Source: Amphibalanus amphitrite (taxonomy: Eukaryota > Arthropoda > Thecostraca > Balanomorpha > Balanidae). Taken from it: DNA of 64,000 nucleotides. The stretch lies in the NCBI RefSeq assembly GCF_019059575.1, contig NW_024882029.1, positions 186,001 to 250,000 of the forward strand. The letters run 5' to 3'. The position numbers were made by a program, and so were the translations under genes. The notes under the pieces were generated by a model, which had not been told where the DNA came from, made no database searches, and worked only from the letters and a program-made list of their open reading frames with translations. Positions 4,997 to 37,436 of the stretch are shown here, piece by piece (position 1 is the first letter of the stretch; every line of letters begins with the position of its first letter).

Positions 4997-5998
4997 TAAA
5001 ATCGCGCACGGACGGGCAGGGGTGGATATCCGCTCCTCTCTGGGGGGTTTTCATGAATAGTGAAAAACGCCGCGTGCAGCCCCGAGAAATTTGACATGGC
5101 TATTTCTTCATTAATTTCACACATTTGTGTGCAAGTTATGACCTCCTACCTTGAAAGTTCAGGTCATCAGGTCACTTTGAATGACCAAACCTCAAATCAC
5201 TTCTTTTGCAACTTTGTCACCGTGGGCCACAGTATGTAGGGGACATAGCCCTAGCCCTATGAATGTTGCAGGATGTATGAAAAAGGCCATAGGTATAAAC
5301 TGTTTTTATTCAAAAGGGCTCTGGCTCCATGTTTTCCGAAGAAGCACGTGTTTTAACCACCAAAACATATACGGCCTTGACCAAAACGGGCAAAAACTGA
5401 ACTTGAGAAAATCGAACGTCGGCTAATTTCAACATGTGATTTATTCCCGACAATATTCATTGGCACGTTTTGAAGCTAGACGTTAGAACAGTGGTGATGT
5501 CATGCCGTCAAACTTGCATTGAAATGTAACGTATAACTATATCATAGACAGAACCGCTTACGCGATTTAACTCGGTAACATTGAAAACGAAGTTTCCCTC
5601 AAATTCGTTGACACTGTGTCATCGTTTGAGGTCACACGACGTGAGGTCAACTTTTTACCTTGACCTTACGAGTCAACACATAATTGTTCTATGCGGATTG
5701 ACGAGCGGATCACGACGGTGTCATTAGTTCATTCCTATAGCATGATTACTTCAAAAGTTATGATCGAAAACTCTCTTAATCTCTAGCGCCGCTATTTTGA
5801 CTATTTTGACCCCTGTGAAGTCGCTTTTGACCTCACCTGAAAATGTCATTTGAAATCATTGTAGCCCTTGTCCTTCTGTATCCAATGTCTTTTACCGCTT
5901 GTCGCTAGCTTGCCCCTTCTCGAGATCTAAGGGGGGCGGTTATCCGCCATTCCCCGTCGGTGCGAAGTTGGCGCGGAGGCCGTTAGTGCGCGAGTTAA
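4997..5998. mobile_element. E0: decayed member of the asymmetric TTAA element family
   Basis: The right end carries TTAA (5995-5998) and the long-end layout: an outer motif, a spacer and a second copy ending in ACGGGG. Just inside is a G-run/C-run hairpin with GCGGTTATCCGC (about 5933-5955). The left end at about 4997 is eroded (TAAA instead of TTAA) but keeps GCGCACGGACGGGCAGGGG and a matching GGATATCC hairpin. The right half is clearly homologous to the right half of E2, including GCGCCGC(T/C)ATTTTGACT and TTTACCGCTTGTCGCTA. Several AGGTCA/TGACCT half-sites are present. Confidence 0.65.
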
Positions 5999-7811
5999 TA
6001 CAGTTGCTTTGAGTTCGTATTTGCTATCTTCTTTTATGGGTCGAAACAAAGCAATAAGGAATGAAAACTTTATTTCACTCAATCCGCACGTATAATAGGT
6101 GTTTTTCATCTTGCACTGATTAAACAAGTTTTGCTCGTCTCTTCACCTTTCACGACGCTTCTAAATGCGTGAACTGCGCACACGCACACACACACAGTGC
6201 ATATGCTATCGTAATTTGGAAGTTTTTGGAGGTATTGCACTTGTTACCTTCGCTGCACAGTGGAGTCACAGCGCAAAAAAGTGTGTTTACTCTTCCAGTT
6301 TTGTACCGAAGCAGTTATCCTTCAACACGGGATTGTTGAGCAATTTGCTGTTAGGCCTTAAATTACGCGAGCTAATGATGTTGGCGGCTGTATGCGTCCC
6401 CAAATAAACATCTGTCGGTGTGCGCTAGCACCGACACGGTGTTTGGCAGGTCTCACGGAGCGCACTTGCACCAAACACCACGGCCGACTCGGCGCCAGCC
6501 GTTACTGGAAACGAGTCAGTTCCGGTCTGTGCTTGAGTTCGACATCGATCGGCATCTTTGAGGCAGTCTCCGTGCGACATCATCTATAGCGATGTTTTGG
6601 CTGTGGTTGCTAAGAGTCATCGAGGATGTGGGCGAGATCTATCGAGATTCTATCGTTTGCCTACAGGGGTTATATAATATGAGTTTAAGCAGAATCGCCA
6701 AAGTCCCAGAATATGTCATCAAGTAAAAGGGTAAGATCTAAGAAAAATTATATTTCATGTTTGCAGGAAATGTCCGTCATAGCGAAATGGCTACTACATA
6801 AACTAGACTGCTTGCGTTCGTTTTGGCTAAAACGTTGCTGTTGACTGAGCCTGCTAGTATGTATATCAATAACGGTGGCTCCCTCGGCAGTATCCTCAGT
6901 ATTTATTGAAATGCTCATGACACATGCCTCTCGGTCTGGTGCGTTCGGTTTCAATTTTCCATCCGCCGGCTGAAGCCGAATTGGAGCCGTTTCTGAGAAA
7001 CGGCCCGAGTCCGGGCAGGATCGCGCTCGTTTGGAGGCGGCGTTGTCACCACAACTTGCCATCGAACGTGTCGCCTTATTGCAGTCCGGTATCTGAGCGC
7101 CGCATTGGCGTCGGACGCCGGCGCCGGCCAGGCCCGACCATGGCGTCGGGCCTGAGTGGTATCCGATGGGTGTCGTGCTCGCCGCGCGACTGTCGACCGG
7201 TGCGCCGCCGCGCCGCGCGCTGCCAACGGGAGCCGGGTGGCGGCGTGTCACCGCCAGCTGAGAGAACCGCTGCCAACCGATCGACGAGCTGTGCCCCCGG
7301 CCAGCATCGGCGCCGATGAAGAGGGCCGAGGGATGACGGACCCCTCTAGATGAGCGCGCAGTTCTCTATAAGGCTGTTAAATCTCCTTTGAGTAGAGTGA
7401 ATATAGACAACCGTTATCGTTTTCAGCCTGTGGTGGATGTTTTCCCCAACCTTGCTTCCAATCGGCTTGACTAATAAATCACGCCAAATGGAATGAGTAG
7501 AGCTTCTATCGATAGGCACCAATGTCCATAAATCTCAATTTCTTGGGACAAACAAAGCATCCTAGGGGCTCGTCGGTCTTGGCTAAGGCAGAATTACTTA
7601 AGTGCAGTCTTTTTGTCCCGTATCCAGATTGCGACATCGACAAAACGTTGAAGGGTCTCAGAATTGTTGAGCATGATGAAGGGTCATCAGTGATGAAGCG
7701 ATGGGCGTTGGACAACATATTGCCACCATGTCACATTCCAATGCTATTGGAAAATGTTTATGCTTTCCTTCATCGATTGAGTGCATTTGTCATCATCACA
7801 AGCCCAGGTAT
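5999..7811. other. Non-coding stretch with GC-rich island (about 6900-7350)
   Basis: AT-rich flanks surround a GC- and CpG-rich block at about 6900-7350. Open frames exist on both strands (up to 167 codons on the minus strand, 6748-7251), but they look like products of high GC content: both strands are open and no domain or splice context is recognised. It might be a regulatory island; no gene is supported. Confidence 0.45.
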
Positions 7812-8113
7812 TATTGGTGCCAATCTGAATTTCTTTTCTTGGAATTCCAATTTTTGTCCAATTCCAATTTGGAATTTGGACGGAATTCTTAACATTTTTG
7901 GAAATTAATCGGAACACAAGGCCTTTAAAATTAAAAATTTTAAAACGGAGGCCTTTAAAACGCTTTTAAACACTTTTATAATTTACGCAAAAAATTCAAA
8001 AATCGCTAAAAATTGGAATAGTCCCCGCTTTGGACAAAATTGGAAATTTACTTGGCAATTTCTTGGAATTGGATCGGAATTGGAATTGAAATTTCATGAA
8101 ATTGGCACCACTA
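7812..8113. mobile_element. hAT-type MITE, 302 bp, 8-bp target duplication
   Basis: The 8-bp direct repeat CCAGGTAT flanks the element (7804-7811 and 8114-8121). The ends are inverted repeats: TATTGGTGCCAAT on the left and, reverse-complemented, TAGTGGTGCCAAT on the right. The interior is AT-rich with several AATTCCAATTT-like words and has no coding capacity. An 8-bp duplication is typical of the hAT superfamily. Confidence 0.75.
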
Positions 8114-8398
8114 CCAGGTATGTTGAAAAGGTATCAGCTTTTAGCTTAAAGCATGGCATCACTTCCATAACAAAAGGAAACGGAAAAAAAATAAAGAGAT
8201 GATGGTATGGTGACGGCGAGGAATCTTCCAGCAAATAATGTTAGATAGGTAGATCAGACACCTCTCAAAATAAAAAGTTAATTGTTACTTTTACAGCTTT
8301 TTGATTATGATGATAGATACGCAGTTCATCGTGACCTATCATAAACTATCTGGATCTGAGGTTTTCAAAGGATCAAAACTTTGCTAAACGGGTTCCCA

Positions 8399-8452
8399 CT
8401 CTCTCCTCTCTTCCCCCCTCTCTCTCACTCTCTCTCACTCTCTCTCACTCTC

Positions 8453-8530
<78 letters not shown>

Positions 8531-8540
8531 TATCACTCCC
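8399..8540. repeat. (CT)n microsatellite
   Basis: A long CT tract with a few interruptions, about 60 bases beyond the donor end of the 8606-8818 KChIP exon. On the minus strand it is a GA tract within the intron. Confidence 0.95.
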
Positions 8541-8605
8541 TCTACCCTCCCACCTTGTCAGTCTACAGCAGCGAGTGATTTGACTATAGTGTGTTAACAA
8601 CTCAC

Positions 8606-8818
8606 ATGGAAGATGGTGTCCACATGACTTCTGGCCGCGTTCGGGTCGATGCGCGGCACCACCTGGCGCCCCAGCATGTCGTAGATGGCGGTGACCACCA
8701 GCTGCATCTCGTGCTTGGTGATGAGCCCGTCGCCGTCCAGGTCGTACAGGTCAAACACCCAGCGCACCTTCTCGTCGGTGGTGCCGCGCGACACCCGCGA
8801 CAGCGCGTGAAGAAAGTC
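8606..8818 (-). CDS. KCNIP: KChIP exon with EF-hand 3
   Basis: A 213-base exon, in frame at both ends (71 codons). The acceptor is ...GGCGGCAG/GACTTT and the donor CCAT/GTGAGT. It encodes DFLHALSRVSRGTTDEKVRW, then EF-hand 3 with a fully canonical loop D-L-D-G-D-G-L-I-T-K-H-E, and ends at ARSHVDTIFH. If the donor were not used, translation would stop four codons later (V-S-C-stop), giving a form without EF-hand 4. Confidence 0.92.
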
Positions 8819-11800
8819 CTGCCGCCGGCAGGGTGGAGGGGATCGTCAGCTTTGCAACGGTTAGTTACACAGGGGCGGTCAGTTACAAGGGGCCGTCAGT
8901 AACACAGGGGTCGTCAGTTACACAGGGGCCGTCAATTACACTGAGGGGCCGTCAGTTACACAGGGGCCTTCAGTTGCACAGGGTCCGTCAGTTACACAGG
9001 GGCCGTCAGTTACACAGGGGCCGTCAGTTACACAGGGTCCGTCAGTTACACAGGGTGTCAGCTACTCAGGGACTGTTAGCTACACAGGGGCCGTCTCGGT
9101 TACACAGGGACTGTTAGCTACACAGGGGCCGTCAGTAACACAGGGCGTCAGCGCAGGGCCGTCAGTTACACACGGTCCGTCAGTTACACAGGGGCCGTCA
9201 GTTACACAGGGACTGTGTAAGTGACCATAGAGGGACTGTTAGCTACACAGGGACTGCTAGCTACACAGGGGCCGTCAGTTACACAGGGCGTCAGCACAGG
9301 GCCGTCAGTTACACAGGGGCTGTTAGCTACACAGGGGCCGTCAGTTACACAGGGACTGTTAGTTAAGCTACACAGGGGCCGTCAGTTACACAGGGGCCGT
9401 CAGTTACACAGGGTCCGTCAGTTACACAGGGTGTCAGCTACTCAGGGACTGTTAGCTACACAGGGGCCGTCTCGGTTACACAGGGACTGTTAGCTACACA
9501 GGGGCCGTCAGTAACACAGGGCGTCAGCGCAGGGCCGTCAGTTACACACGGTCCGTCAGTTACACAGGGGCCGTCAGTTACACAGGGACTGTGTAAGTGA
9601 CCATAGAGGGACTGTTAGCTACACAGGGACTGCTAGCTACACAGGGGCCGTCAGTTACACAGGGCGTCAGCACAGGGCCGTCAGTTACACAGGGCCCGGG
9701 GCCGTCAGTTACACAGGGGCTGTTAGCTACACAGGGGCCGTCAGTTACACAGGGACTGTTAGTTAAGCTACACAGGGGCCGTCAGTTACACAGGGGCTGT
9801 TAGCTACACAGGGGCCGTCAGTTACACAGGATCCGTCAGTTACACAGGGGCCGTCAGTTACACAGGGGCCGTCAGTTACACAGGAACTGTTAGCTACACA
9901 GGGGCCGTCAGTTACACAGGGGTCGTCAGTTACACAGGGGCCGTCAGTTACACAGGGGTCGTCAGTTACACAGGGCCGTCAGTTACACAGGGACCGTCGG
10001 TTACACAGGGGCTGTTAGCTACATAGGGGCCGTCAGTTACACAGGGCCGTCAGTTACCCGAAAGAGATGCAGTGCTTAAGAGTCTACTCATGTGGTAACT
10101 CACATCTGTTCAAGCACTTAATAGACATGAACATTATACATAATCGAATCTTGTGGATGAAGCTTTCTCAGTTTCAGTTTCAGTTGTTTCAGCTCAAGCT
10201 TTCTCTGTAGTTTCAGTTGAAATAATTGAACAAAACTACGACGATACAGCTTATGTGATATGTCATTCGATGAGAGCAACAGTGAAACACAACAGTTTTG
10301 CGGCCCTGTAATTGTTGAAATACTGGCAGCGAAGTGATATTATGCCCCGAGATATTGCTGGCGGTTTCAATTTGGCCATTGATTTATGGTCACTGCCGGG
10401 CCGGGCGCTCTTTCCTCCTGTCGCCTGTTACAGCTCATAAACATCACATCAGCTTGGTATTTATTACAGCGATCCCCATGGTAAGATTTAGAAATCCCGT
10501 CGATGGTCGACCAATCCCGTTAAAAGTGATCTCTTATGGGTGGCCATTGACACTTTGTGTCGGAGCATCGACCCACTGTGTCATCATAAATCAGCGGCGG
10601 AGAAGCATGACGTCATCGTTGCCGGAAGTGCAGTGGCTCTTGGTGGTGAAAAAAAGAGATGAAAAAGGAGAAATTATGAAACATTACTGCCGGCGAAACT
10701 CGTCGTTTTCCCACTAGTTAGCTCTTAGGTCTTAAGAAAGTCTCGAAACCTAATCGGTGATATAGCAAAAAGCATGTGACCATCAGAATATACAGTGCAT
10801 ATTTTCTGTTGGCTTTCAACTTACCTCGAAGTTGATTTGTCCACACTGATTGGGCCTCAGCGTGTTGAACACGTAGTGAGCGTACTGGTTGGCATCTGCG
10901 GGCAAAACCAGTGCAAGCGTTGTCTTCTAAAATGCTTAGCTGCTGCTGACTGCATTGGCCTAGACGTAGACGCTTCAACCAAGGAATGCCATCGTCTCTT
11001 CAACCACATTCAATGTAGGTACCGACAAATATCAGAAGTAAGCCTTAGTTACATACATACATATGTCCCATTGAAATGCGCTAGCTTCGTTCGAGAGATT
11101 AAATTAGAATCCTCATAGATACAGTCACTATTCGTTTTCCACATGACATGCTAAACAAGGTTGATATGCATACATTGGTGGAAGATATTTTTTCTGATAA
11201 AATATGCTGAAATAAACTGTCGAGTTACGCTTCATACTCTTCATACTCATACTCGCTCAACATCGACACATCACGGCTCTCAATGGGCGTCCGTTAGGGA
11301 CCTGTAAACTGGAATGGCGCTCTCCGCCGTCTCCGTTCCTCATTAACCCGCGCCCCACTGGGGGGGGGGGGCTATTTATAGCCCCCCCCTCCCGTTTTTC
11401 TGCAATAACTTCCAAACCGCTTGACGTATCGACGCCAAACTTTCAGTACCTTAGGCTGCATCAATTTGACACCTTGTGTCAAAATTTGAACTTCGTACCT
11501 ACTATAGGTCGGCCGGAAATGACGTCAGAGTGACGTCATGTTCGGCCGATTTCGACGCAAAACATTGAACCACAGCAATCGCTCCCAAGAGCTCAGTTTT
11601 TAAGCTAGATCCAATTTCTTTGCATGAGAGGACTCAGAATAGACTGCGCTATCAAACTGCCGTCTCGGATTTTCGAAATTTTGAAAATTTTGAAAATTTT
11701 ATATAATAATATCCAAAATTTATATTTTTACATTTTTTTTCAAAAAGTTTTTGACTTTTCAAAAAAACGGGAATATATGTGATAGAACGCATTATTATGA

Positions 11801-14800
11801 CTAGCTCTAGCAAGTTTTAGCTAAATATCTTCAAAAATGGCCAAGTTTTACGCATTATTGCAAAAAATTCACAATTATTAATTTTTCAAATCAATTTTTC
11901 AGCACGTATTTGACATCGTACGCCAATATAAATAGCACCATCGTGTTCCTGAGCTCAAACTGCATCCAATAGACACCTTTTTTTTTGAAAAATTTCAACT
12001 TCAAAATTTGACCTTTTTTGACCTGAAAGTGACCTAACATAAGCTAAATTCGACACAAAATGACCTCGAATAACACAGACGACATCAAATTCGAAATCTC
12101 TGACCTAAATGGACCATGAAACATGTGTCACGTGACCGACGCATTATATAATATTTTCGTGACCTGTGATGACCTGACCTTGACCTGAAAATGAAAGTAC
12201 AAGTTTGGTACCCTCAGGGTAACTAGAGCATCTGTTCCCGAGTGTGTGATCCAAAAATGAGCCTGATCTGACTTGTAAGACGGCGGCCAGAGCCCAAAAA
12301 GTGATCAAGCCAAAATGCTAATAATTTTTACTTTGACCTTGACCTGTGACGTCATCGGTGACCTCGAGGTCAATGAAATTAGGTTCCGCTCGACAGTTTT
12401 TCCGGGGCTATCAGACGCCGTTTGAATTTTGACGATCGGCCCAGTAGTTTCGGAGTTAGGAGGGGGGGCTATGAATAGCCCCCCCCCCCCAGTAGGGCGT
12501 GTTATACGCAGACCCCAGTGGGGCGCGGGTTAAAGGGACCCTCCCACCTTCAAAAAAGTTTATGAATTGGCATGAAAGTGATGTCGCTCGGTTCAGAAAG
12601 AGCGAAAACGAATATCTACCAAATTTCACCGAAAAATATTCACCGGTTTTCAAGATATTAGACTTTTACTTTTGTTTACTTTTTTGGGATCTCCGCTGTT
12701 TCTAGCGACTTTATTTTAGAAGTGCGGCGTTTGCGGCAGATGTTGCGCGCAAATAGCATATACCACCGCGTGCTACAAAACGTTTTAGTCAAACATTTAA
12801 AAATCGTTAGATATTTGCGCTGACGTCACACATTCAGAGGGGTATTCCTAAGCATTAGCCCCTCTGAATCAAAATGCTGCAATTTTGAAATTCAATATTT
12901 CCGATTTAAGGCATTGCTCGATGTTGTGAGTGCCGAAACCGGTAATTGTGAGCCAGGGACCCCATTTTGGCTATCTCAACTCAAATCTAATGTTAAGGTG
13001 GGAGGGTCCCTTTAAGCGACTCGTAGCGCAGACGATGTGCCCGTCCGCTCCTAAGGAGGTCGGCTGTGGGGCCGCGCGCCGCGCGCCCGGCGCGGCGGCC
13101 GATAACGCCCGTCCGCCGGGGACGGCAGTCAACTGCAGCGGCTCGACCCGCTCCGGCGTCACCGGAAGCACTCCGTCAATGGCCTCCGGCCGACGACTCC
13201 CTTTATCGCCGCTCTGTGCCGTGCCCGCGCCGAAAAATGTCACGCTCCGAGGCCTCCAACAATGGTGGGCAGCTGAAATGTGTTGATCCAGCCCGCGCAT
13301 TGTTTGAACCTCTATTCTCTGCATAACGTCTCCGAGTTCCTGTTATGTTCGTTTGAATTTGATATTTGTTCTAACCATTAAAAAATAAAACAACTCCTTT
13401 TAGCATTAAAAGAAAAACTACAAAAAACGTTGTGGTGATTGTGCTGAAAATCATAGTCTTGTTTTGCTTCCTTATATATGCATTAAGGCGCCGAAAGATC
13501 TCCTCAGTCAGTCCCAGAGTTATGCTTGTGAGGTAGTCTGCTGAAGCGTGCCCATCCCATGTGCTTTCTATTCCACTGTCTTCTTCCTTGCTCAATATTT
13601 TACCAAATATCATTTTTTAGATTGCATCTCTGGCTACTCACCGCCTTGGGGGAAGTACTGAGAGAAGATGAGCTTGAACGCGGCTTCGTCAACGAGTCCC
13701 GACGGACACTCCTGAAAAAAGAATAGTTTAGTCGATATATCGCACGTACTGACAATGCAGGCATGTGTCGAAATGATGCATAAACTGATTATCTCGTCAT
13801 AGCTCAACGAAGTTGTTTAGTGATACCGCTAAATTGGTCGACGTTATTTCGTCAAATCATCAATACATAGACCGTAGTAATCACATGGTAAGCGCACATG
13901 GTCAATCACATGGTATTTCGTCAAATCATCAATACATAGACCGTAGTAATCACATGGTAAGCGCGTTTTAATGAATTGCACGTCAAAGTGAAATGAAATA
14001 TGCATGACGGTTTCAGAGTTTGCAACACAGAAGATAATTGCAATAAATATTACAATTTTAGTACAGAGATTGTCATGAAGCCCAAATATTTACTCATGTT
14101 TCAAACAAGGATGCTCGCTGGTTTGTAAAGATTGCATCAGTTCCCATCGTGAGAAGGCGTGCATTACAGCGAACCTCTGGTATCTAACTATAAGTTAAAA
14201 GTAACTCACATGAGTGTAAGATTGGTCAGTTCGATAGAGTGTTCGGTAGTGCAGTTACCGTTTCCACATATTCGTATTCATATCAACAATCTTGCCTAAC
14301 AATAGGTCTGAGCTGCGCCGAGCGCGTTCGAGGGACTCTGACCATATACCGATGCGAACATTATTGTTGGATTCGCATGGGCTATACGATCATAAAGAAT
14401 GATTGTGAACGTTCAGTATGACTACGACCCAATAAAAGGTCATGAGGGTGCAGTTAGTCAGTTGTTTGTTGGCATCAACGATAATGGTATGCGCCGATAC
14501 AGGGAGAATATACACACAGAAAAATATTAACACCGTTAGCGGTGTAATTGCACAGTACATATCTGAGCACTTGAGGAAAGTTAATTTAGTCCCTTCCCCG
14601 CTTGAATTACTCGCGCTTCTAAATGAACACCAGGAAGAAGGTAATAGAACACTGTTAGGAGGGTTGGGTGTTTTGCTACATGTAGTAAAACACCCAACCC
14701 TCCTAACAGTGTTCTATTACCTTCTTCCTGGTGTTCATTTAGAAGCGCGAGTAATTCAAGCGGGGAAGGGACTAAATTAACTTTCCTCAAGTGCTCAGAT

Positions 14801-17800
14801 ATGTACTGTGCAATTACACCGCTAACGGTGTCAATATTTTTCTGTGTGTAGAACAGCAATCTAGGCAGTTGCTTACCTGACTTACTGCACTGCCACCTTT
14901 TTATTGGCTGCCTTGCTGTATATGAAACCATTGGTAGTTCTGGTGACATGTTAGAGAACCAACAAGCAGGAATTGGTATTTAAAACATTATTATTTGTTG
15001 TCATGCAAGAGGACGTTCGCCACCTTTATTCGCTATGGTAAAAACCATAAAAAAATGTATGAGCCCATGACCCAATAGGTGAGAATCATTCTATGGGCAT
15101 GTGATGTTTCGCTGTATAGCTACCATTTGTTGTAAAGGTCACCAGCATGCAGCTACAGCGGAATATGAATATAAGACGCTTGGGACCGATCGTGCCCTTC
15201 CGTTAGCGAGCAGACTTATGGCGGTGTGTTTTGCTTTCAGCGGCTTCGCCTTGTGTATATGTTTTTCCCTTGAGCCTTGTCTTCTGTTTTGTTGATTCTG
15301 TTTTACTGCTTTCTCTTCTTTTAGAGCTGCTCTCAGCTTATAGTAGGGGAACGTTATTCTGATCGTAAAAACAAGAGCAAATAAAATAATCAAATGCAGG
15401 CCTGGAGTGAACAACCAAGGATTCAAAACAACTCGGTGATTTCAAAACTGCATGTAGCACTTAACCCTATTCCTGGCGGGGGGGGCCTCAGGAGCCCCCC
15501 CCCTGAGGTTTTTTGGTTATTTCTCCCAAACGCGTTGAGCTAGGAAGCTCAAATTTTCTGACTTTTCCTAAAAGGCTTCTACGCAACATGTCTGAAAATT
15601 TTGAGTTGATCTGACCTCAGGTCAGGTCACCAGAGGCGGTTTGGTGACCCTACCTCAGAAAAGTTTGCAATCACGCCAGAGCTAGAGTTTTTGACCGATC
15701 AATTTCTTCTCTTCAGGCTTTAGTTAGGGTGCCAGTATGTACAATTTGTATATCTCGGAATTTTGATATCGGTGACCTAAGGTCAGGTCAGTTTCGCGAC
15801 CTCCCCATTATAAGTCAATGGGGGAAAAATCAACTCCCTGTTTTTACCACTAAAACGGGTCGGAATGGCCCCATATACCATACATGACTTCATATACGAT
15901 CAACCTTCACTACCTTGAGGTCTGTTTTGCTGTTGGGCAGCTGTGAGGTCATGTGACGTCATCAAAGGTCACCAAAGGTTTTTGGCCAATAACTCCGTAC
16001 ATGAACAAGATACAGACGCGTGGATGGTCTCATTGTGTTCAGCTCGTCAAGACGCATCGAATGACATGATGACCTCGAGGTCACGTGACCTGAGGTCAAC
16101 CTTTGACCTTGACCTTTCGAGGTCAACATATATATCATTCGATGCGGATTGACGAGAGGATCACGATGATGCCCTTAGTTTGTTCCTATCTTGACTAATT
16201 TGAAAGTTATTCGAGAAAAACTCTCTCCATATCTAGCGCCGCCATTTTGACTTTTTCGACCCCTGTGACGTCATCTTTGACCTGACCTGAAAATGACCTT
16301 TGTAAAAATTGTAGACCTTGTCCATGCGTATCCGATGCCGTTTACCGCTTGTCGCTATCTTGCTTCGTTCTCGAGATCTCAGGGGGGGGGCCGAATCGGC
16401 CCCCCCCCCCCAGTTTCTTGTCCCGGCGGAGCCCGCCAGGAATAGGGTTAAAGTGCAATGGCTCTATGTCAATCATAATGCTGAATGCAAATATATAAAA
16501 TATGGCACTTAACGAAGTAAATTTAGCAAATAACACCCTATGGTCATTTGATGATGTTATCAGGAAACCAGCACGTAACGATATGCATTCATCGCAGTTA
16601 ATCTGCGATTTGCGTGTCGCATAATCCGCGGCAGCTTTGTAGCGTTTTCGCTGTGCGGTATATGTGCGGTCTTTTCAGCACCGACTCGCGGCCGACTGCT
16701 CCATTTATCAATACGGCGTCGCGGTCTGCCGACCACATTCGGTCTACGTGGCCGCCAACCATACGCCCCCCGCCGCCTTTCAATGGGGAGCGGCACTAAG
16801 CTGCCAGCGTGATTCTAACGGAACAGCGAACGGACTTGTAATTGCCTCAGCAGCTGTTACTTGTGGAACTCGTTCAAATAATGTGGCGCTGAGGAAGGCT
16901 TGACACTTATTAAATGTTGAAGCTAGGTTGCTATTGCACGAGGCTATACTGGGACTCTTGTTCAATGCTGTTTACGTTGTACTTACACCGTAGGTAAATA
17001 CAGTATGCAATTACATAACGCTTCAACCGTCACCTAACACTGTTCAAACTTAACATAACTAGAGCGTAATAGGTATTTTGAAATATTGTAGAACCACAAG
17101 GCTGTCAATTTACCTGCATGATTGAATGCATAAAATTAAGTTAAACATAGACCTCTGTTATCTGTACACCTGGCGGTGCACAGACCTCTGGTGTCTATAA
17201 CTTTAACCAAAAGCGTAGACAAAATAGACTGGTGGTGCTGTTAGGGCTTATAGCCAAAGTGCACATTAGTCTGCAACTTTTCTGCGTTGAATTCCCAGTA
17301 GGCATGCTGTGCCTGGGCTCAGTGCTGTGTGCCTATAGGCTGTGCGGCGAAGTTCAGCTCTTGTGTGTCTGGTCTGAGTGACTGACACTGTGTGGCTGGA
17401 CAGTGGGCTGAGTGGCTGGGCTTTGCTATGATAAGCGGTCTTAGTCGCTTGCCAGCCGCTCGACGTCATCTATTTGCTATTCTGTCAGCATTCAGTTCAA
17501 TTTAGAAAGCGGAAAGCCTCTAAAAGAATAAGTATGGGAGAACGTCAACGGTGATCTTGGCTCACGCTTTGCAAGAGCAAAAACATTCAGTCTTTGTCGT
17601 TTCCGCGAAATTCGCTCAGAGCTGTCAGAAAAAGAATGTAACAGGAAAACGATTATATCCAAGGGCCCGTCACAAAAAAGGTTGCCCACACTCCAGCAAG
17701 ATAATCGTATGATAAACATACTTCTTACAGGCAATTTTGTTGGCCTGTTTTTACAGAATGACCTGGCATTTGGTTTATTTGTAAAAGAATAAAACAATAA

Positions 17801-19101: not shown

Positions 19102-19936
19102 CTGCAATGACGAGGAAGGGGAGTTCGGGTCACCAAAAAGTAAACAATCGTACTTTTCGGAGGATTTCAGACAGTGTGGTTGATTATCTCCATTTGGCGT
19201 CTTTTTCAGGGCCATTGAAAAATATAAGCAGGACAATACTGGATACGAGGTTAAAGATCGAACAAAAAAATGTTTTGACGTTAACAAAAAATATGCTGAA
19301 ATAAGACCATTCAGTATTAAACACCACAAATTGGCGGATACATCACACAACACTAGGGTGGGGATGTTCTCAAACCACACCGACACAGCCCCACAAACAA
19401 GGATAGCACGGTATAGCCGTTTATGGTTTCCACACAACGTGGTATTACTGTCTAGCGACAAACGATCAACAGGCAAACGATGCAGTTTCTAAGGAGCCAG
19501 ATCTTATTAAACCCCTGTAAATTGTCAGCTGTGTAGGAAGTAATTCGATGCTATTTTCGAATTGGCTCCTATTGACCAAGACTGCGGTCGTGGTTAGCGC
19601 GCTGCTCCGCGCTGCGAGCTCACAGCCGCTCGGTGGGACGGCGATAAGCTCGTGCGGCAGAGCGGCCGGGACCGGCGGCGACCGAAATCGATATCGCTTT
19701 GCAGTTCCCGGACACCCCGTTCCGGAATTAAAGCTCCCACACAACTCGCCAATTGCCTATAACGCATCACAATAGGTGCCGAAGAATGCGGCGTACGAGC
19801 TGATGGTTCCCTTTGAGCGATAACAACGGCTGGGAGCGTAACTTCCACTAACAGCTCCAACTCTTCTAAAAACTTATCACTCAACAGTCGTTCGGACGAC
19901 TAGCGTTTTAACCTATCATAAGGCGTCCATGCAACT
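19102..19936. other. Upstream KChIP intron or 5' region, nothing firm
   Basis: Includes a short GC-rich patch at about 19590-19700 (open on both strands, no domain). No KChIP 5' exon could be supported here. Confidence 0.45.
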
Positions 19937-20974
19937 TTAACCCTCGCCGGACCTATTGGTTTTCTACATACGCGCCGGCCGAGGGGGGGGGGGCGGGTAC
20001 GACCCCCCCTCGCCGTTTCGCCCCTGGTGGAGCTAGCGCGTCGCGGAAAAAAAACGAGCGTGTGCGCCGTTACGAGACGCAGAGATTGGTACCCGATTTT
20101 AAGGTCCTAGGTCAACCGGTGACCTCTGAGGTCAGGTCAAGTGCCCCAGGGTACGGTTCAGTTTTTGGTGAATAACTTCGCAAAAAACGGCCGCAGAGCC
20201 GCGATTTTGGCAGCATCGTGTTCGCCTCGCTCAGGCGCGTCGAATGATATACTTTTTGTTCGGGTCAGGTCAACTTGGGGTGTTGACCTCAGGTCAAGGT
20301 CAGGTCAGCACCCCCAGGTCACGAAGTTGGTCGAAAGAGGTCATGTCGCATATCATTCGATTCGGCAGGTCTTCCTGAGTCCATTGGTGGCTTTCTCGAC
20401 TCGCTAGCTCAATTCGATCGGGAGGTATTGACGAAAAACTAATATGACCTTGATGACGTCATAAATGACGTCACGGAAGGTCAACATTGCAAAAGTGACG
20501 CATCTAACCTTGCAAGGAGTGCATCAAATCACGATTCTGTGTGCTTGAGATAGTTGGAGATCGTTCCCGGCGCCAGAATAGCAGTTTTCATTTTTCCCAT
20601 AGACTTATAATGGTGAGGTCACGAAAATGACCTGACCTCATATGACCTTTAGGAAAAATCCGAGATATAGAAGTTGTGAGACTCATAATGGATACTAGAT
20701 CCTGCAAGTTTCATTTCCCTGTGACATCTCCTCTGGCAGTGAGGGCGTTGCGAAGTTGCGACATCTGAAGACCGTGCAGAGGTTCACTTATGACGTCATA
20801 GGTCAGTGACCTGACCTGACCCAAAAATGCGGTTGGTGTCAAAAGATGCGGCTTGGATCAACGGTCAGGTATGCCAAGTTTCAGCTCTCTATCGCCAGCG
20901 TGTTCGGAGCTATCGCGAAAAAACCCTATGGGGGGGGCGGCACCCGCCCCCCCCCCTCGGCCGGCGAGGGTTAA
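19937..20974. mobile_element. E3: asymmetric TTAA element (long end left, short end right)
   Basis: TTAA at 19937-19940 and 20971-20974. Both ends carry CCCTCGCCGG. The left long end adds a spacer and a second CGCGCCGGCCGAGGGG; the right short end runs straight into the C-run. G/C-run hairpins with GGGTACG-type arms (left) and GGCACCC-type arms (right) sit inside the ends. AGGTCA-ACCGG-TGACCT occurs at 20109-20125, with many further half-sites and TGACGTCA copies. A diverged internal fragment of this element recurs at 44684-45200. Confidence 0.85.
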
Positions 20975-22095: not shown

Positions 22096-23293
22096 TTAAC
22101 CCGCGCCCCGTTGGGCTCTGCCGAGCAACGCGCCCGGTTGGGGGGGGGGCCATTTTGGCCCCCCCCCTAAGATCTCGAGAACCACGCAACATAGCGACAA
22201 GCGGTAAACGGCGCTGGATAGCCCCAACGGGGAACTACCTTGTGACCCAATTTTATTGACCTAGGTCAAACCGATGACGTAACAGGTCAGGTCAAAGGTC
22301 CAATTTTCACCGTTTACAGGCACTTCAAGAAATGCGTTGTAAAATCGAGTAAAATGCATTTCATTGAAAATCATCGATGGGGAAATGTTCTTCAAACACA
22401 TATTTTGCTATTTGAGGTCACTGATACCAGGTCAGGTCACAGAGGTCAGGTCACGGGGGGGTCACAATATGAAAGTGTCGTGTGATACAGGTTTTATGGT
22501 CCATTTTACATGACAAATGCGATTATATGGGTCAGGCAGCCTTTGGGGCCAGCTTAGATCACGTTTTGGTCAAGGTCAGGTCAAGGTCAGGTCAAGGTCA
22601 GGTCAAGGTCAGGTCAAATTAGGTCAAATTTCAAAGTTAATATTTTTGCATAAAATGGGTATCGAATCGATGCAGCTCGTCACGGGGAGTTCAATGATCG
22701 TCTTTGTTTTGCCGTACATGGTCTAGAATTGCTAAAAATTGAGTTCAAAAATTTGACGTCATCATTTTTGAACAGTTTTTTCGCTATAACTTGGCCAAAA
22801 AACGAGATATCGATCTGAAATTTGGTATGTATATAGAAGAGCGCTGGGACTATCACATATATTCCGGTTTTTTTCGAAATTCGGAAAAATTTTGGATTTT
22901 TTAAAAGTTTTTTTCTAAAAAAATCAATTTTTTGAATTTTTTTTGGTCAAAAACCAAAAATTTTGAAAATCCGAGATAGCAGTTTTGTAGCGCCGCTTTT
23001 TGTCTACTAGACCATATAAAGAACTTTGAAATTGCTTGATAACTGTAGATTTGGTGAGCGTTTCAAGATTGCATGTTTTTTGGTCATTTTTGCTGGAACA
23101 TGACCTCAGTTTGACCTCAATAACTCCTGACCTAAGGTGACCTAAGACTTGAAATTTGGTGTGAAGGTGTCAAATTGATGCCCGGGAAGGTACTGAAAAT
23201 TTGGCGGCGCTGCGCGCCGCCGTTTTCTTGCTATTCAGGAAAAACCACAGGGGGGGGGGGCCAAAATGGCCCCCCCAACGGGGCGAGGGTTAA
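22096..23293. mobile_element. E4: asymmetric TTAA element (long end left, short end right)
   Basis: TTAA at 22096-22099 and 23290-23293. The left long end has CCCGCGCCCCGTTGGG, a spacer and CGCGCCCGGTTGGGG; the right short end has CCCCAACGGGGCGAGGG. Hairpins have GGCCATTTTGGCC (left) and GGCCAAAATGGCC (right) between G- and C-runs. A tandem AAGGTCAGGTC array lies at 22567-22626. GGCGGCGCTGCGCGCCGCC near 23205 forms a strong stem and is shared with E6. Confidence 0.85.
22567..22626 (+). promoter_or_regulatory. Tandem nuclear-receptor half-site array in E4
   Basis: An 11-base unit AAGGTCAGGTC is repeated about four times, followed by two AGGTCAAAT-type sites. Each unit carries TCAAGGTCA, the extended half-site known for monomer-binding receptors of the FTZ-F1/NR5A and ERR type, plus an overlapping AGGTCA. 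Function is inference. Confidence 0.35.
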
Positions 23294-24577: not shown

Positions 24578-25530
24578 TTAACCCTAGAACGCCTAGGGGG
24601 GGGGGGTTGTATCAACCCCCCCCCTGAGGTTTTTTCGAAGTGCACGCAAAACGGCTTGTCGTAGCGGGCTGAAATTTTCAATACCCTATGGGGCAACCTT
24701 TGCGCAACTTTTTCCGAAAAAAAATTGATCGGGTCATGTCAGGTCACGGAGTTATGACGTCATAAGAGGTACAGCCTCCGGCCGGATTTTCACAAACTGA
24801 GTGCCAACGCCCGAGGTTTCCTGCCGGTGGTACGGACATCGGTTGATGGATCGTGATGAAACTTCCCATGCATGTTGGGGCAAGTATTGGCTATCATATG
24901 GTATAAGAAATTTGACCGGGTCAGGTCAGGTCACGGAGCTATGACGTCACAAGAGGAACAGCGTCCGGTACTATTTTTGAAAAGCGCCCGAACCACTATT
25001 TTGCTAATTCTTGTCACCTCAATGGGAATATGCAGCAATATTAGCTTCTATAGGGAGCAAATGGACCTCCCAAATCCAAAAATACAATCAGATTTCAAAA
25101 ATTTAAATTTTGATTTTTCGAATTTCTGCCGCCGACTGTGACCTTGCCGACTTCCGGCGCTCCCAACGCGCCATTTTTAGAGCTAGGGAAACGAAATACA
25201 TACCAAACGATAGAGAATTGATCAAGGAACACGATAGTGAAGGTTTCAAGTCGATATCTCCCACCGTTTTGCCGCAATCGCCGCCGAAAGTTGAAAAAAG
25301 TCTATTTTTCCGAAAATTTGACCTTTGACCGGTCAAAAGTAGGTCAAATGTTGACCTAGGACCAAAAAATATACCACCAATCGCGAGATCTCGTTGAGAG
25401 CAATCCGTTGGTTTTTTCCGCTAAGCTCTACGACCTTCCGTTTCGAAACGCCAGGGGGGGGGGGTCGTAACAACCCCCCCCCCCCTGGTCGTTCGTGTTA
25501 TGAGAAATGGCCTGGTCGTGCGAGGGTTAA
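24578..25530. mobile_element. E5: asymmetric TTAA element (short end left, long end right)
   Basis: TTAA at 24578-24581 and 25527-25530. The left short end is CCCTAGAACGCCTAGGGG into a G-run. The right long end has CCCTCGCACGACCAGG (reverse strand), a spacer and CGAACGACCAGGGGG. Hairpins carry TTGTATCAA (left) and TCGTAACAA (right). The ends match less well than in other members. Several GGTCAGGTCA half-sites and one TGACGTCA are present. Confidence 0.8.
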
Positions 25531-25863
25531 CATATCAATAGCACATTGCACCAATAGAAATGCGTTGCGACTGAGCATATACAAGGGAATCATATGATAT
25601 CCGCGGCGGCCAAGTTATTACTAAATTCCCATTCCTCGCAGGTTCAGAAATGACCTTCTTTGGTGGATATTATTGTTTGTAGCTCTTCCACGGAATAACT
25701 TGATATCCAGGCTTATTCAGAACATCGGTATTAACATCGGTACTGAAGAAAATATGGCGGCATGTCAATCTGGTGATGCTTCGTGACAGGTTTTTGGGCA
25801 CTGGTCGGATCGAGATCCGCAAACTGTCGCATCTCGCCGGGCGGTGCAGTAGTGTCCATACCT

Positions 25864-25880
25864 CCCGCTAGGTGGCAGCA
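25864..25880 (+). promoter_or_regulatory. CTCF-type motif
   Basis: CCCGCTAGGTGGCAGCA contains an exact fit to the core consensus CCRCYAGRKGGCRSY. CTCF is an insulator and chromatin-looping zinc-finger protein conserved in bilaterians. The site lies between KChIP and srGAP, outside any recognised transposon. Occupancy is inference. Confidence 0.45.
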
Positions 25881-25881
25881 C

Positions 25882-25953
25882 TCGTAGCGCCTGTGGTTAT
25901 ACTGTACCGCACGGCACCTGTAGCGCCTGCAGTTATACTGTGCCGCATGACAC
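25882..25953. repeat. 36-bp tandem repeat, two copies
   Basis: Two adjacent 36-base units (25882-25917 and 25918-25953) share TAGCGCCTG and TTATACTGT, with a few substitutions. They begin right after the CTCF-type motif. Confidence 0.75.
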
Positions 25954-28839
25954 GCGCCGCGCCCGCGGTTGCTTTGCCGATGCCTGCAGTTACTGAGCCG
26001 TGCGGGAAACGCATTGGGCGGGTCGGGAGCTGAAGCAGAACGAAAACTTTATGATTCCGTGCCTGTTTCCGAGTGGTAGGTCAGCTCTTGTCTCCGTGAA
26101 TAATAACGAGCGATGAATACCAGACTCAGTAAGCCTATAAAACTGTACAGTGATGTTGAGTATGGATTGCGAAAACTTGTCCGAGTTTTGAGCCCATATT
26201 TTATCTGAACATATATTCACTTAGTGTTGTGTCTGGTCATTCGTTTATGCTCTCGGCATGTATTTCTTTTTCCCGCCTGACATTAATTTTTTCATATATC
26301 AAGTACTTACCTAATTGCCGTCATTCGCCCCAATTCCACAACATAGCATGAGCTGAAATTATATAAACTTCTATAAAGTGCTAACACTGTTATACCTACA
26401 TGAGCCATTTAGTTAGCAGTATGCGTCATAATAATACGAGTAACTAAAAGGTGCGGAGGGAATTATCATCCCCGATGCTTTCGCCAATGGGCGTTGGGCG
26501 AATATTATGCATTCCCGATAACAGTTTGTAACATCTCTTTCGCCGCTGGACACATGAATGGTAAATTCAGGTGCTGGAAGGCGTGTGGACACTGGGGCGT
26601 TTTCTGGCCTCTGGCATGGATGTCATGTAGTGGTAAGAATTGGTAATAAAACGGTGATACACTGATGGTTTGATGGCATGATGAGCGATGACAATTAAGT
26701 GCGTATTCGATAGGGATAGAAGCATTGTATTTAGATGAATGATAAAAAAGGGTTAGGGAAGGTTGGGGCAAGACATCCGTATACCGAGGGATGCTGATAT
26801 ACAGAGACCTATGATTGGGAGAATTAGAAGGAACACATGTGTGAAGGAGACAGAAGTGTACAGATAACGAGTATGTAATAATGTAATAATCGTATATGTA
26901 CGATTGCGTATCAATTACTAACGTATTAATTGACCGCTATGCATAACGTGACGCATTTTATCTGATCTGCCACATGGTGAAATAAACAAAAGACAGCTGA
27001 TAAAAGCAGTCGCGCTATTGCAACTTGCGGATATTATGTTTTTATCTATTGCTTTCATGCTAGACCTTCAGTAATCTAACCAATGGTACTACAAGCTAAA
27101 GAAGAAAAAATGAAAATAGGACATCGTTGTTTTTTGCACCGGTCTAGTTCTAGTACTCAACGAGCTAGTGAGTCATTTGTCTGAAAACTTTGTCACCACT
27201 GACTCATTCAAATATTTATGCCATTTATGTAGTTTATTTATGTTAGTGTGTTGGTGTGCTCATTTGTAGTGTGAACATGAGTTTATTTTACCTGGCCCAA
27301 ACATGTCTAAAGTAATTTCACAATTACTTTGACGAGCTTTCGAAACGACAGCCTCGGCTGCTCCTAACTTGATCGAGGAAAACATTCGCTCGGCAGGGCT
27401 TGTAGCACTAAAAATCCCAGAGGTACGCGAGCCAAAGAAAATGTTCGGTGTTTTACAGACGTTCCCTTCCCAGAGCTCAAGTTTCCGTTTCCGGCTATTC
27501 AGACAATGGACGGTGGTCGCCAGACGCCCTTCCAGCGGATGTTCGAATACTCCAGACAATGGCAGGAGTTTTCTACGCACACAGACAGAGCTTCTGGCTT
27601 TGTTTTGTTTTGTTGTGCTAGGTTCTTTCGGTCTGTTAAGACCATCTCAGGACTACAGAGTGAGAGAACGAGAAGAAGACATTGGGTTGAGTCCACCACT
27701 GGCCCGTGTGTCGCAGCGGCTGGGACGATCACCGATCACGCTAGAAGGGTAATGAAGTCCCCCAGCCGATCACACCGCCACCCTGGAGGTGTACGGGTAC
27801 ACTGTTCTTCATTAGAGCTTCCTCCTGCAGTTGTCTGCTGGGTTGGCCGTCAGCCCGGAACACCAGCTCCCTGAGTCGCGACACGACACGACAGGAGACA
27901 TGACGTCAGTGGATCACATCGCTTCATGACCTGATGGCCAATGGAGCCTGGTAAATGACTGGATGGTGTAATGCTCCGGTCCGGACATCCGACACGTGTG
28001 TGTATGTAATTGCCTCTGATGGAGCTCGATGCCTAGGTATAGTGAGGGTAATAGAAAATGTCTTATATTTGGACGCAATGGTAGAATATCTAATGATGTT
28101 TCTGACATTATCCTAGCGATATAAATCTACATAGGTACCCAAACCCATTGTCATTGATATCTCTAAAAAGGAGTTACTTTCGAGAACGACAGCATTTTAA
28201 AGCTTATTTATTTTGAACTATATCAAACTGCCTGCAGCATTGCGTGTACGGTAGTACATACCATAGATAGAAACATAGAGTACCATAGTACCACAGATGA
28301 GAGTAGAAGTAGGTACCAAGGACTAGAGCTTTGCTGCAGCTCCACGCTGCTTGACGACATATGTAGATCTTGTGCCTGTGTTAATTTGACGGTTTGTTCA
28401 CTAATGACTTACATATGCTCAACGAACTAATATGAAAACTTATGAATCAATCAGAACATGTCTCCATATTCTGAGGATCGATCGGCTTCCACGAGGTAGC
28501 ACTTTGCTTAAGTGATGTGACATTACAGAAATGGTGCACCTGGACAACATTGAAGGCCACGCTTTTTGTCTGATTACTTCCGGCGGAAAGAATCTCTTCC
28601 CCCTCCTCCACTCGGTACGGACAGATTAGATAAAGTGGATGTAGAAAAAACATCGGGGACGTCTGAGATGCATCAGGGACTTCCTGAAAACACTACGGAC
28701 ATTCCTCGAAAATCAGGAACATCACACGGATAGCATGGACATACATAGGGCAATGGGGGCAGTGCGGACATTTCGCGACACGGAAGACATCCTGGTGACA
28801 GAGAGAACATTTACAGAAGACACAGAGACACGGATTCCT
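25954..28839. other. Non-coding stretch, no gene supported
   Basis: AT-rich sequence with short frames only. A minus-strand frame at 27260-27580 ends at a CCAG/GTAAAA site whose phase would fit the KChIP exon at 19101, but its sequence is not KChIP-like and it is not called. Confidence 0.4.
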
Positions 28840-29400
28840 ACCGGCGACGGCAGGAGGGCCGCCGGTCAGCCGCTGACGCAGCCAGGCGATCGGACCCGTC
28901 TTGGACGCCGTGGTGGCCCGCTCAGGTCAGCCGCGAGCGGTCAGCCCGGCTTGGCGCGGAGTGACGGGTCGGCCTGCTGAGCTGGTCTGGTGACTGATGT
29001 GATGATCACCTGTCTGATCGGACCGTGCAACGGTCTGTCCGACTGACTGACAGTCTGGGATGGATGTTTGACTGTCTGACGGGAGTACCCAACCGTCCGG
29101 TCCACAACCAAGAGCCACGGATCCAGTCAGTACTAAACGAGCACTAGCTCATGACTCCATCAGACCTCACGATACTCCACACTGGCTCCAGCGCTGCGGC
29201 CCTTCCGCCCGCCGTCACCGCCGCCGACGACCGCCGCACTGCCGTCGCCGCCGACACCGCTCCGTGTCGGCGAAGGAGAGGCGACGTTAGCGACGCAGGT
29301 CGGCGCCGACGACACCGACACCGGAGCGTCGGTCCCGGCCGGTGCGGGGCTGGAGCTGGGCCCGGACGGAGCTGGAGGAGCTGGAGCTGGGCTTAACACG
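28840..29400. other. GC-rich island beside GA tract
   Basis: A CpG-rich block with Gln/Ala/Pro/Arg-rich open frames on both strands and no recognised domain, followed within 110 bases by a GA microsatellite. The arrangement resembles a regulatory island, but coding use (for example an alternative 5' exon) cannot be excluded. Confidence 0.35.
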
Positions 29401-29501
29401 CAGCTGCTGTACGTGGAACTGGGGCTGAACTCTAGATAGAGCTGCAGAAGCTGGGGCTGGGCCTGGTTTGGAAGCAGGTGGATGGGCTAATTAGTCTGTG
29501 G

Positions 29502-29512
29502 GGGAGAGAGAG

Positions 29513-29553
<41 letters not shown>

Positions 29554-29598
29554 AGGGAGGGAGAGAGAGATAGAGAGAAAAAGAAAGAGAGAGAGAAG
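29502..29598. repeat. (GA)n microsatellite
   Basis: Interrupted GA tract. Open frames across it (Glu-Arg or Ser-Leu polymers) are artefacts of the repeat. Confidence 0.9.
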
Positions 29599-29878
29599 TG
29601 AAGGAGCAAGGGTTTGGACTGGACGGGAGTTGAAAAAAAAACTTGAGCTTCTGATGTTAGACATGAAGTTGAATAGGTTAGACATGAAGAAGAAGTTAGA
29701 CATGAAGTTACCTAATGCTAGGTAACGAAGCTAAAAAGCTAGAACGGATATGGAATTAGCAGGGTTGTAGCCTCAGCCCTCAAGAGCTAAGGTAAAGCTT
29801 GAACAAAGCCAAAGCTAGTGTTATAATATTTTTACTTTATCATTTTCACGTGCATGAAATGTAAATGATATTGTTTTC

Positions 29879-31136
<1,258 letters not shown>

Positions 31137-32325
31137 TTAACCCGCGCGGGGCTGGGGTCTCCAGCCGAACGCGCGGGGCTGGGGGGGGTGAATTTTACCC
31201 CCCCCCCCCTGTTATCTCCCGAACTAATGATCCGATTTGGAAAATTCAAACGCCAATCGAAAGCTCCCATCACAAACAACTAAATACATGTACTTAATTT
31301 AAAGTTTGAGGTCAAGGTCAAGGTCAGGTCAAGGGTACAAATTGCAAGTTTCTACAGTATCGGCCTTGCACCGTAGTTGCCGAAGAATGGAGTCATGGAC
31401 TGAGACTGATCGCCCAAAACGTGTTCTTAGGCTACCAAGACAATATTCGTTGCATACAATATCATTCAGAGGTCAAGGTCAAGGTCAGGTCAGGTCAGGT
31501 CAGGTCACCAAAAACAAAATATAGAAAAGGGCATGTGCGACACATGTTTTATGGGTCATTTTACTCTAGAATTCAATAGGCACACTCAATAAGTGATATG
31601 GACCACCTCTGGATGAATTTCAGGATTAGGTCAGGTTAAGGTCAGGTCAAGTGAGGTCAAATTTTGAAGTTGGTTGATAAGGCCTAAAAAGGTGTCTATC
31701 TGATGCAGTTTTTCACGGCGAATCGAATGATGCTATTTTTGTTTCCGTACGAGGTCTAGAACTTCTAAAAAAGTCATTTTTTCAAAAAAAAAATGGTGTG
31801 TCGTGACGTCATAAAACTTTGAATAACTCCCACATTTTTGAACCGATTCTTCTAAAATTTGGTATGTAGGTGCACATAGACCACTTCTCTGACATATATT
31901 CCGGTTTTTTCGATAGACTCAAAATTTTGGATTTTATAATCATTTTCCCAAAAAAGTCAGTTTTTTGAAGAAAAAAAAAATTAGGCCAAAATCCAAACTT
32001 TTCAAAAAACCGAGATAGCCATTTGATAGACAAAATCAAATTACGTATAACCTTATTTGTTACGTCTTGATTCCTTTAAAAATGAAGATGTTAGCGGCGT
32101 TTGAACTTTTGCCGTTTTTGAGGCGAAAATGGCGAACATGACGTCACTAAAACGTCAATTTCTCAAAAATTTTCAGACGGATTTCGCTCCAAATTTCAGG
32201 AAACGTGTCAAATTGATGTAAGAAAAGGTACTGAAAGTTTGGCGGCGCTGCGCGCCGCCGTTTTTTAGATATCGCAAAAATTCGCGAGGGGGTTAAAATT
32301 TACCCCCCAGCCCCGCGCGGGTTAA
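31137..32325. mobile_element. E6: asymmetric TTAA element (long end left, short end right)
   Basis: TTAA at 31137-31140 and 32322-32325. Both ends carry CCCGCGCGGGGCTGGGG; the left long end has a second copy after a 12-base spacer. Hairpins have TGAATTTTA (left) and TTAAAATTTA (right). Half-site arrays lie at about 31307-31331 and 31471-31508. The interior is an inverted homologue of E8 over almost its whole length. No coding capacity. Confidence 0.88.
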
Positions 32326-32408
32326 GCTTCGTTCAGACTGAAGGAGTTGCTACACCCGTTCAGTCCTGAGTTTCCGTACATAGAGGAAAACGACGGCAAT
32401 AGGGAGAT

Positions 32409-32410
<2 letters not shown>

Positions 32411-32471
<61 letters not shown>

Positions 32472-32486
32472 GAGAGGGAGAAAGAG
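32411..32486. repeat. (GA)n microsatellite
   Basis: GA tract of about 75 bases with one GGG interruption, starting shortly after E6. Confidence 0.92.
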
Positions 32487-36002
<3,516 letters not shown>

Positions 36003-36249
36003 GTAACCCGCGCCCGGCTGGGGGTCCTGGATTTCCACGCCCTGCTGGGGGGTGTTTGAACACACCCCCCCTTGTAACTCGGCTCCTGGGCCACGTAGTG
36101 ATACGCGGAAATTTTCACAACATGTGTAGAATTGATGTATGATAAGGTGTACCAAAAACGGCGGCGCTCCGCGTCGCCGTTTTTGAGATATTCGCGAAAA
36201 ACCACAAGGGGGGTGTTCAAATACCCCCCCCCAGCAGGGCGCGGGTTAA
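36003..36249. mobile_element. E7: internally deleted asymmetric TTAA element (about 247 bp)
   Basis: The left long end is CCCGCGCCCGGCTGGGG, a spacer and CGCCCTGCTGGGG; the right short end is CCCCAGCAGGGCGCGGG then TTAA (36246-36249). The left flank is GTAA rather than TTAA. Hairpins carry TGTTTGAACA (left) and TGTTCAAATA (right). It keeps the short-end interior (ATACATCAATT-type word and a GGCGGCGC stem) but lacks the half-site arrays, so it looks like a deletion derivative. Confidence 0.8.
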
Positions 36250-37436
36250 CCCGCGCCCCGCCGCGCTGGGGGGGGCAGAATCTGCCCCCCCCCTTCCCGT
36301 TTTTCGCCAATAACTTCTAAACGCGTTACGCCAGCGACGTCAAACTTTCAGTACCTTATCATACATCAATTTGACACGTTGCCTGAAAATTTGAGCGAAA
36401 TCCGTTGGAAAATTTGTGAGAAATTGACGTTTTAGTGACGTCATGTTCGCCATTTTCGCCTCGAAAACGGCAAAATTTCAAACGCCGCTAACATCCTCAA
36501 TTTTAAAGGAATCAAGACGTAACAAAAAAGGTTATACGTGATTCTTCTTTGTCTGTCAAATGGTTATCTCGGTTTTTTTGAAAATTTTGGATTTTGGTCC
36601 AATATTTTTTTTTTTCAAAAAAACTGATTTTTTTGGGAAAATGATTATAAAATCCAAAATTTTGAGTGTATCGAAAAAAACGGAATATATGTCAGAGAAG
36701 TGGTCTATGTGCACCTACATACCAATTTTTAGACGAATCGGTTCAAAAATGTGGGAGTTATTCAAAATTGTATGACCTCGCGACACACAATTTTTTTTAA
36801 AAAAAGGTTTTTTGGAAGTTCTAGACCTCGTACGGAAACAAAAATAGCACAATTCGATTCGCCGTGAAAAACTGCATCAGATAGATACCTTTATAGGCCT
36901 TAACAACCGACTTCAAAATTTGACCTCACTTGACTTGACCTTGACCTGACCTCGACCTGAAATTCATCCAGAGGTGGTCCATATCACTTATTTAGTGTGC
37001 CTATTGAATTCTATGCGTAAAATGACCCATAAAACATGTGTCGCACATGCCCTTTTCTATATTTTGTTTTTGGTGACCTGACCTGACCTGACCTGACCTT
37101 GACCTTGACCTTTGAATGACATTGTATGCAACGAATATTGTCTTGGTAGTCTAAGAACACGTTTTGGGCAATCAGGTTCAGTCCATTCTTCGGCAACTAC
37201 GGTGCAAGGCCGATACTGTAGAAACTTGCATTTTGTACCCTTGACCTGACCTTGACCTGACCTCTGACCTACTTCAGCAAAAAATGTGGGCTCTTCAGAT
37301 CCGCCTTGTTGAGAGCTTTCGATTGCCGTTTTCCCCGTCTTTCTACGACAATGGGTTCGGAAGTTAGACAGGGGGCAGAATTTGTCCCCCCCAGCAGGGC
37401 GCGTATGGCTGAATAGCCCAGCTGGGCGCGGGTTAA
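36246..37436. mobile_element. E8: asymmetric TTAA element (short end left, long end right)
   Basis: TTAA at 36246-36249 (shared with E7) and 37433-37436. The left short end is CCCGCGCCCCGCCGCGCTGGGG. The right long end (reverse strand) is CCCGCGCCCAGCTGGG, a spacer and CGCGCCCTGCTGGGG. Hairpins carry CAGAATCTG (left) and CAGAATTTG (right). About 17 TGACCT half-sites run head to tail in the right half (for example 37074-37112). The interior is the inverted counterpart of E6. Confidence 0.88.

Follow-up and report, generated by a model that had tools for sequence, protein, structure and literature searches.

The 64,000-nt stretch of the Amphibalanus amphitrite genome analysed here (the window; positions 186,001 to 250,000 of contig NW_024882029.1) raises the question of how a transposon keeps its two ends alike when neighbouring elements of the same build carry different ones. 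A reading of the sequence alone had reported nine TTAA elements at 4997-37436 that each pair a short end with a long one, and all nine (E0-E8) are present there. We consider it likely that they are non-autonomous piggyBac transposons of several families, with ends kept matched by a filter that the cognate transposase would impose.

Elements of the window

The nine elements are MITE-like (247-1198 bp, non-coding, of high copy number and uniform length), and no ORF of at least 150 aa was found inside them. Seven of the nine have TTAA on both sides; in E0 and E7 the TTAA of one side is altered by a single base. Eight have CCC...GGG termini at both ends, E0 having them at neither. E0 (4997..5998, + strand) is degenerate, with TAAA in place of the left TTAA and a right third akin to E2 (77.6% over 361). 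E1 (11343..12533, +) has a short left and a long right end, the motif ACTGGGG and the cores CTATTTATAG and CTATTCATAG. Both ends of E2 (15461..16451, +) carry the motif CCTGGCGGG, with the unequal cores CCTCAGGAG and CCGATTCGG. The long end is on the left and the short end on the right in E3 (19937..20974, -), while E4 (22096..23293, -) has the motif GTTGGG and the core CCATTTTGG at either end. E5 (24578..25530, +) is taken up below with its transposase-bearing relative. E6 (31137..32325, -) has GCGGGGCTGGGG in all three motif positions and has its interior, not its ends, in common with the E8 family. E7 (36003..36249, -) is a 247-bp element with GTAA in place of the left TTAA. E8 (36246..37436, +) has a short left and a long right end and the family motif GCTGGG(G); the window copy is old and has extra bases in its own short end.

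The short end runs in the order TTAA, CCC, motif and a palindrome made of a G-run, a core and a C-run. In the long end the same motif comes first, and a spacer and a further, partial motif separate it from the palindrome. The surplus over the short end is usually 26-28 bp in these families: 26 bp in E1 (17/20 copies) and E2 (10/11), 27 bp in E4 (17/21), E6 (19/20) and E8 (18/21), and, in single copies, 28 bp in E3 and 27 bp in E5, E7 and the relative of E5 on contig C527. With E0 left out, the window copies off their family length are those of E2 (23 bp) and E8 (22 bp).

E7 and E8 stand back to back and have the TTAA at 36246-36249 in common. Two E5-type short ends adjoin in the same way on one TTAA at L149 (C527), as do an E5-type and an E4-type long end at L136 (C1173). 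From these shared-TTAA cases, piggyBac-type insertion next to existing ends may be favoured. The interiors of E4, E6 and E8 contain tandem AGGTCA-like units (e.g. 22568-22617), which presumably resemble nuclear-receptor half-sites.

Elsewhere in the window, inverted arms of 184 nt (88%) at 44353-45393 surround a degenerate E3-like stretch (44667-45192, 88.7% to E3). A TTAA-flanked inverted repeat at 45488-45757, with ends identical over the first 80 nt (TTAACCTTACTC...), is of a non-G-run type. At 14511-14850 two 170-nt arms (99%) adjoin directly in a near-perfect palindrome, and a tandem array of about 66 copies of an 18-nt repeat lies at 8863-10057. The cysteine-rich open frame at 85-1902 (605 aa, with repeated CTYC-like segments) had no Pfam match at E up to 0.001.

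The end plan and its transposase

In piggyBac the terminal motif (bp 7-16) is contacted by the dimerisation/DNA-binding domain, and the cysteine-rich domain binds the palindrome as a dimer. The published ends of Trichoplusia ni piggyBac are LE35 (left, 35 bp) and RE63 (right, 63 bp), a difference of 28 bp; both include a palindrome of 19 bp, and RE63 has in addition an insertion of 17 bp and a sequence duplication (PMC7351741). According to the same account, the native transposase requires an asymmetric end pair in cells, and a hyperactive form is less strict. The likeness to the window elements covers the TTAA target, the short and long end, the long-end spacer with its duplicated motif and the palindromic internal repeat. 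As far as the plan is set out in PMC7351741, the end design of the window elements is therefore not new. A new end architecture was considered and is ruled out by LE35/RE63, and the earlier remark that no described family has such an end duplication fails on piggyBac itself. Two differences from T. ni piggyBac were seen: the arms of the palindromes here consist of G-runs and C-runs that vary in length, and a single genome contains several end types side by side. In piggyBat of Myotis lucifugus, one end likewise repeats a motif ahead of an imperfect palindrome to which a CRD dimer binds, but the left end has three motif-palindrome repeats and the right end is described in the parts consulted of PMC11707139 as having no such palindrome.

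Kolobok is another TTAA superfamily; the affinity to piggyBac, which had been suggested from the sequence, is confirmed by a transposase-bearing piggyBac with E5 ends in the genome, so that the E5 family gives no need to invoke a Kolobok-type transposase. We searched 807.6 Mb and obtained 116 matches to PF13843 (from 232 first-look candidates), the flanks of 41 of which were partly read. Within these flanks, E5-type short and long ends lie 3971-3977 bp apart on C44, C527 and C1173. The 3971-bp element on C527 (G000:C527:290214-294184) has E5-type ends and an uninterrupted 646-aa frame that matches PF13843 (2.2e-69) and the T. ni piggyBac protein in PDB (6x67/6x68, 2e-78), to which it is related. 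Its three catalytic aspartates align with those of piggyBac, and a C-terminal cysteine-rich region is present, so that a transposase of this type is found inside an E5-ended element. A copy on C171 is 98% identical to this transposase with its frame open; the frame on C1173 has one stop, and that on C44 is split across two matches. Positions 1-391 and 637-953 of E5 align with the ends of the C527 element at 90% and 92%, and most of the C527 middle is absent from E5. Judged by this alignment, E5 is an internal-deletion derivative of the C527 piggyBac.

A more distant transposase on C387 (29% identical over 94-532) is flanked by two ends of the same plan, with TTAA changed at one of them, and belongs to no window family. 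In the partial flanks of the 41/116 matches, no transposase was attached to ends of E1, E2, E4, E6 or E8; a piggyBac transposase with the same ends, which the sequence-only reading had proposed to look for, was thus found for E5 alone. The 30 loci L009-L038 are transposase elements with other ends (e.g. TTAACCCATTAGTGCCC) or with none in reach, and at C257 no ends were found in 1.8 kb. We read the G-run ends present at L022, L023, L028, L029 and L031 as belonging to neighbouring or host elements, a reading checked at L028 only. At L028, a piggyBac of another end type is nested inside an E4-like element.

Matching of the two ends

The observation that the terminal motif differs between elements and agrees within them holds up in numbers. 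The mean edit distance of the outer 16-nt motif is 1.89 for an element's own pair vs 5.67 for other pairings, and 2/362880 permutations, the true one included, are as good. Matching extends to the palindrome cores, beyond the terminal motif that had been noticed: with cores picked by eye, the mean distance is 2.89 vs 6.64, and the true pairing alone among 362880 permutations reaches it. Permutation of motifs or cores alone cannot tell co-variation from shared ancestry; the comparison of E6 and E8 below does.

Exceptions to the matching occur. E5 and E0 had been singled out as matching less well; the outer motifs of E5 are indeed unequal at 4/16 positions, and E0 is degenerate. The transposase-bearing C527 relative has the same two unequal motifs as E5. 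The palindrome cores of the E2 family are unequal between the ends in 11/11 copies, the ends of E4 are one base apart (T/G) as read from its family sample, and the short-end motif of E3 equals the inner, not the outer, long-end motif. Given the unequal motifs of E5 and C527 and the unequal cores of E2, perfect matching is therefore not required.

These exceptions bear on gene conversion within an element, by which one end would be copied onto the other. Such conversion should erase the unequal cores of E2 and the unequal motifs of E5 and C527, and both persist. The match also stops at the palindrome, and the two ends have different subterminal sequences. N28 speaks for conversion: in this one copy, all three motifs differ from those of E4 by parallel point changes, and the flanks are almost the same. 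On balance we regard end-to-end conversion as quite improbable. Of the two causes named earlier, transposase specificity or end-to-end conversion, the first is the better supported, by inference, and the second is not needed.

End types in genome copies

Six samples were drawn from five families (E1, E2, E4, E6 and E8, window copies included; E0, E3, E5 and E7 lay outside the sampling), and 116 of the 117 readable copies have both ends of one family type. A copy was counted as matched when both ends were of the family's type, with tolerance for single substitutions, altered TTAAs and the loss of a palindrome in a few copies (L058, L118); L056, whose long end lies beyond the stretch, and L117, which has lost the outer motif of its long end, were set aside before the count. 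The E8 sample comprised 28 loci, 27 of them readable at both ends and 26 of these matched. All copies were matched in the samples of E6 (21/21), E1 (21/21), E4 (20/20, one copy set aside) and E2 (11/11, by motif, the cores being unequal). These samples were chosen by whole-element score and are biased against mismatched copies. The remaining sample was chosen with an E8 interior as query, and it was matched in 17/17 copies, covering 17 of the 40 listed matches. Many genome copies with mismatched ends had been named as the observation that would speak against matching, and one such copy was found.

An exact 20-mer from the E2 end occurs at 2117 forward and 2118 reverse places in the genome and at 0 in a reversed control. 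Of the 100 places that head the list, 88 make up 44 inward-facing pairs with spans of 733-1022 bp; the other 12 stand alone.

Eighteen partial E8 matches appeared to have other long ends. This was wrong for 16/18, which we take as alignments broken at variable runs; L053 is truly different, and in L056 the end was not reached.

Interiors and ends of E6 and E8

Between the E6 and E8 families, differences fall at 23/897 interior sites (gaps not counted), so that 97% of the interior is in common, and at 29/102 short-end and 64/175 long-end sites (93/277; Fisher p 1.3e-42, with the interior total entered as 890 and the discordance counting as a single event). The comparison used 20 E6 and 21 E8 copies, the window E8 included; L053 was left out, as were L045, L050, L051, L052, L056 and L057, whose ends the script did not locate. 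In their short ends, E6 and E8 resemble each other no more than other pairs of families do. In their long ends they are slightly closer than other pairs, in the subterminal part (79/121, 65%, vs 50-63%) and in the terminal part (53/69, 77%, vs 65-74%).

Plain subfamily ancestry would have ends and interior inherited together, with the co-variation reflecting descent. It agrees with the uniform end types within families and with the interior tree, where the E6 copies fall into a single group. Against it, the E6 and E8 families have 97% of the interior in common, with ends in or near the range between distinct families.

In 7/8 within-family comparisons (long runs collapsed), the ends are less variable than the interior, the lone exception being the E4 long end (5.0% vs 3.8% in the interior). 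This low variation also tells against descent alone and rejects hypermutable ends, and the earlier phrase that subfamilies diverge fast does not stand as a fast rate of the ends. Because E6 and E8 share an interior yet differ at both ends, and the ends are not hypermutable, interior ancestry does not suffice to explain matched ends, and we regard plain descent as very improbable. Unlike end sets across families with a common interior point to tract exchange, which is therefore likelier than fast mutation since the ends vary less than the interior within families.

The E8 interiors are paraphyletic to the E6 group, with midpoint rooting and also with E1 and E4 copies as outgroup. Support for this nesting is weak (0.58-0.70) and polarity is mixed at the few fixed sites; the direction of the interior transfer between E6 and E8 is therefore uncertain, which slightly lowers the probability of the interior passage suggested in the Discussion.

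The sole mismatched copy of the 117, L053, combines an E8 short end with an E6 long end. Among sites above the frequency thresholds, it is E8-type at the 8 interior sites without family overlap (columns 123-949) and E6-type from column 969 onward. At six sites it has an E6-like base that also occurs in 5-7 of 21 E8 copies, and at two sites a base of neither E6 nor E8. With L053 as query, no second copy of this combination was found among the 40 scored of 4697 candidates. We read this as the filter: mismatched chimeras such as L053 arise but fail to multiply.

L053 also bears on the possibility that the ends, not the interior, were replaced, one after the other, in two exchanges that would pass through a chimera of its kind. 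Exactly one end is exchanged in L053, and the weakly supported nesting of E6 interiors in E8 interiors fits this course. It needs two events, however, by way of a combination that had no second copy among those scored, and the switch in L053 falls inside the interior, more than 100 columns from the long-end module. We consider such end replacement rather unlikely. Replacement of the interior is preferred because one event keeps the ends matched, an argument from parsimony only.

Discussion

The matching of ends is probably explained as follows. A transposase has to synapse one short and one long end, and mainly copies with both ends fitting one transposase would multiply. The inferred filter would hold the ends matched inside a family, and families with different transposases would differ. 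Conversion or gap repair may have carried a shared interior into a different end set. Replacement of the middle would keep the ends matched in one event, and a single crossover, as in L053, would unmatch them. N28 compared with E4 is a second mode of change, seen in one copy, and is not explained by interior replacement.

Coral CMITEs are a close precedent for a common interior with unlike ends. They are TTAA MITEs of the piggyBac kind whose TIRs differ between families around a common internal region, and some stand in tandem (PMC2872659). Across families, conservation is higher in the CMITE interiors than in the TIRs, and the cause was left open in that 2010 report. Unlike the elements here, they are about 100 bp long with TIRs of 13-14 bp, and a long/short asymmetry is not described in the consulted parts of PMC2872659. 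Chimeric copies of different subfamilies are also known from Galileo in Drosophila mojavensis (12/170), where the portions consulted ascribe them to exchange among copies; Galileo differs in belonging to the P-element superfamily and in its long TIRs (PMC3573991). In the open-access literature, as judged by titles and the openings of abstracts, we recognised no description of piggyBac MITE families exchanging their interiors, which is not proof of absence.

Tentatively, we suggest that non-coding piggyBac interiors might pass between end sets of different transposases, swapping the mobilising enzyme in one step, with single-crossover chimeras dying out. Such passage would also explain the coral CMITEs. 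The window ties several families of one genome to an end plan known from one insect piggyBac. Across these families the extra length is almost fixed and the motif varies freely, and such a set reveals where agreement between the ends is required. The puzzle of 2010, MITE families with a common interior and unlike ends, becomes directly testable with the E6/E8 pair and L053.
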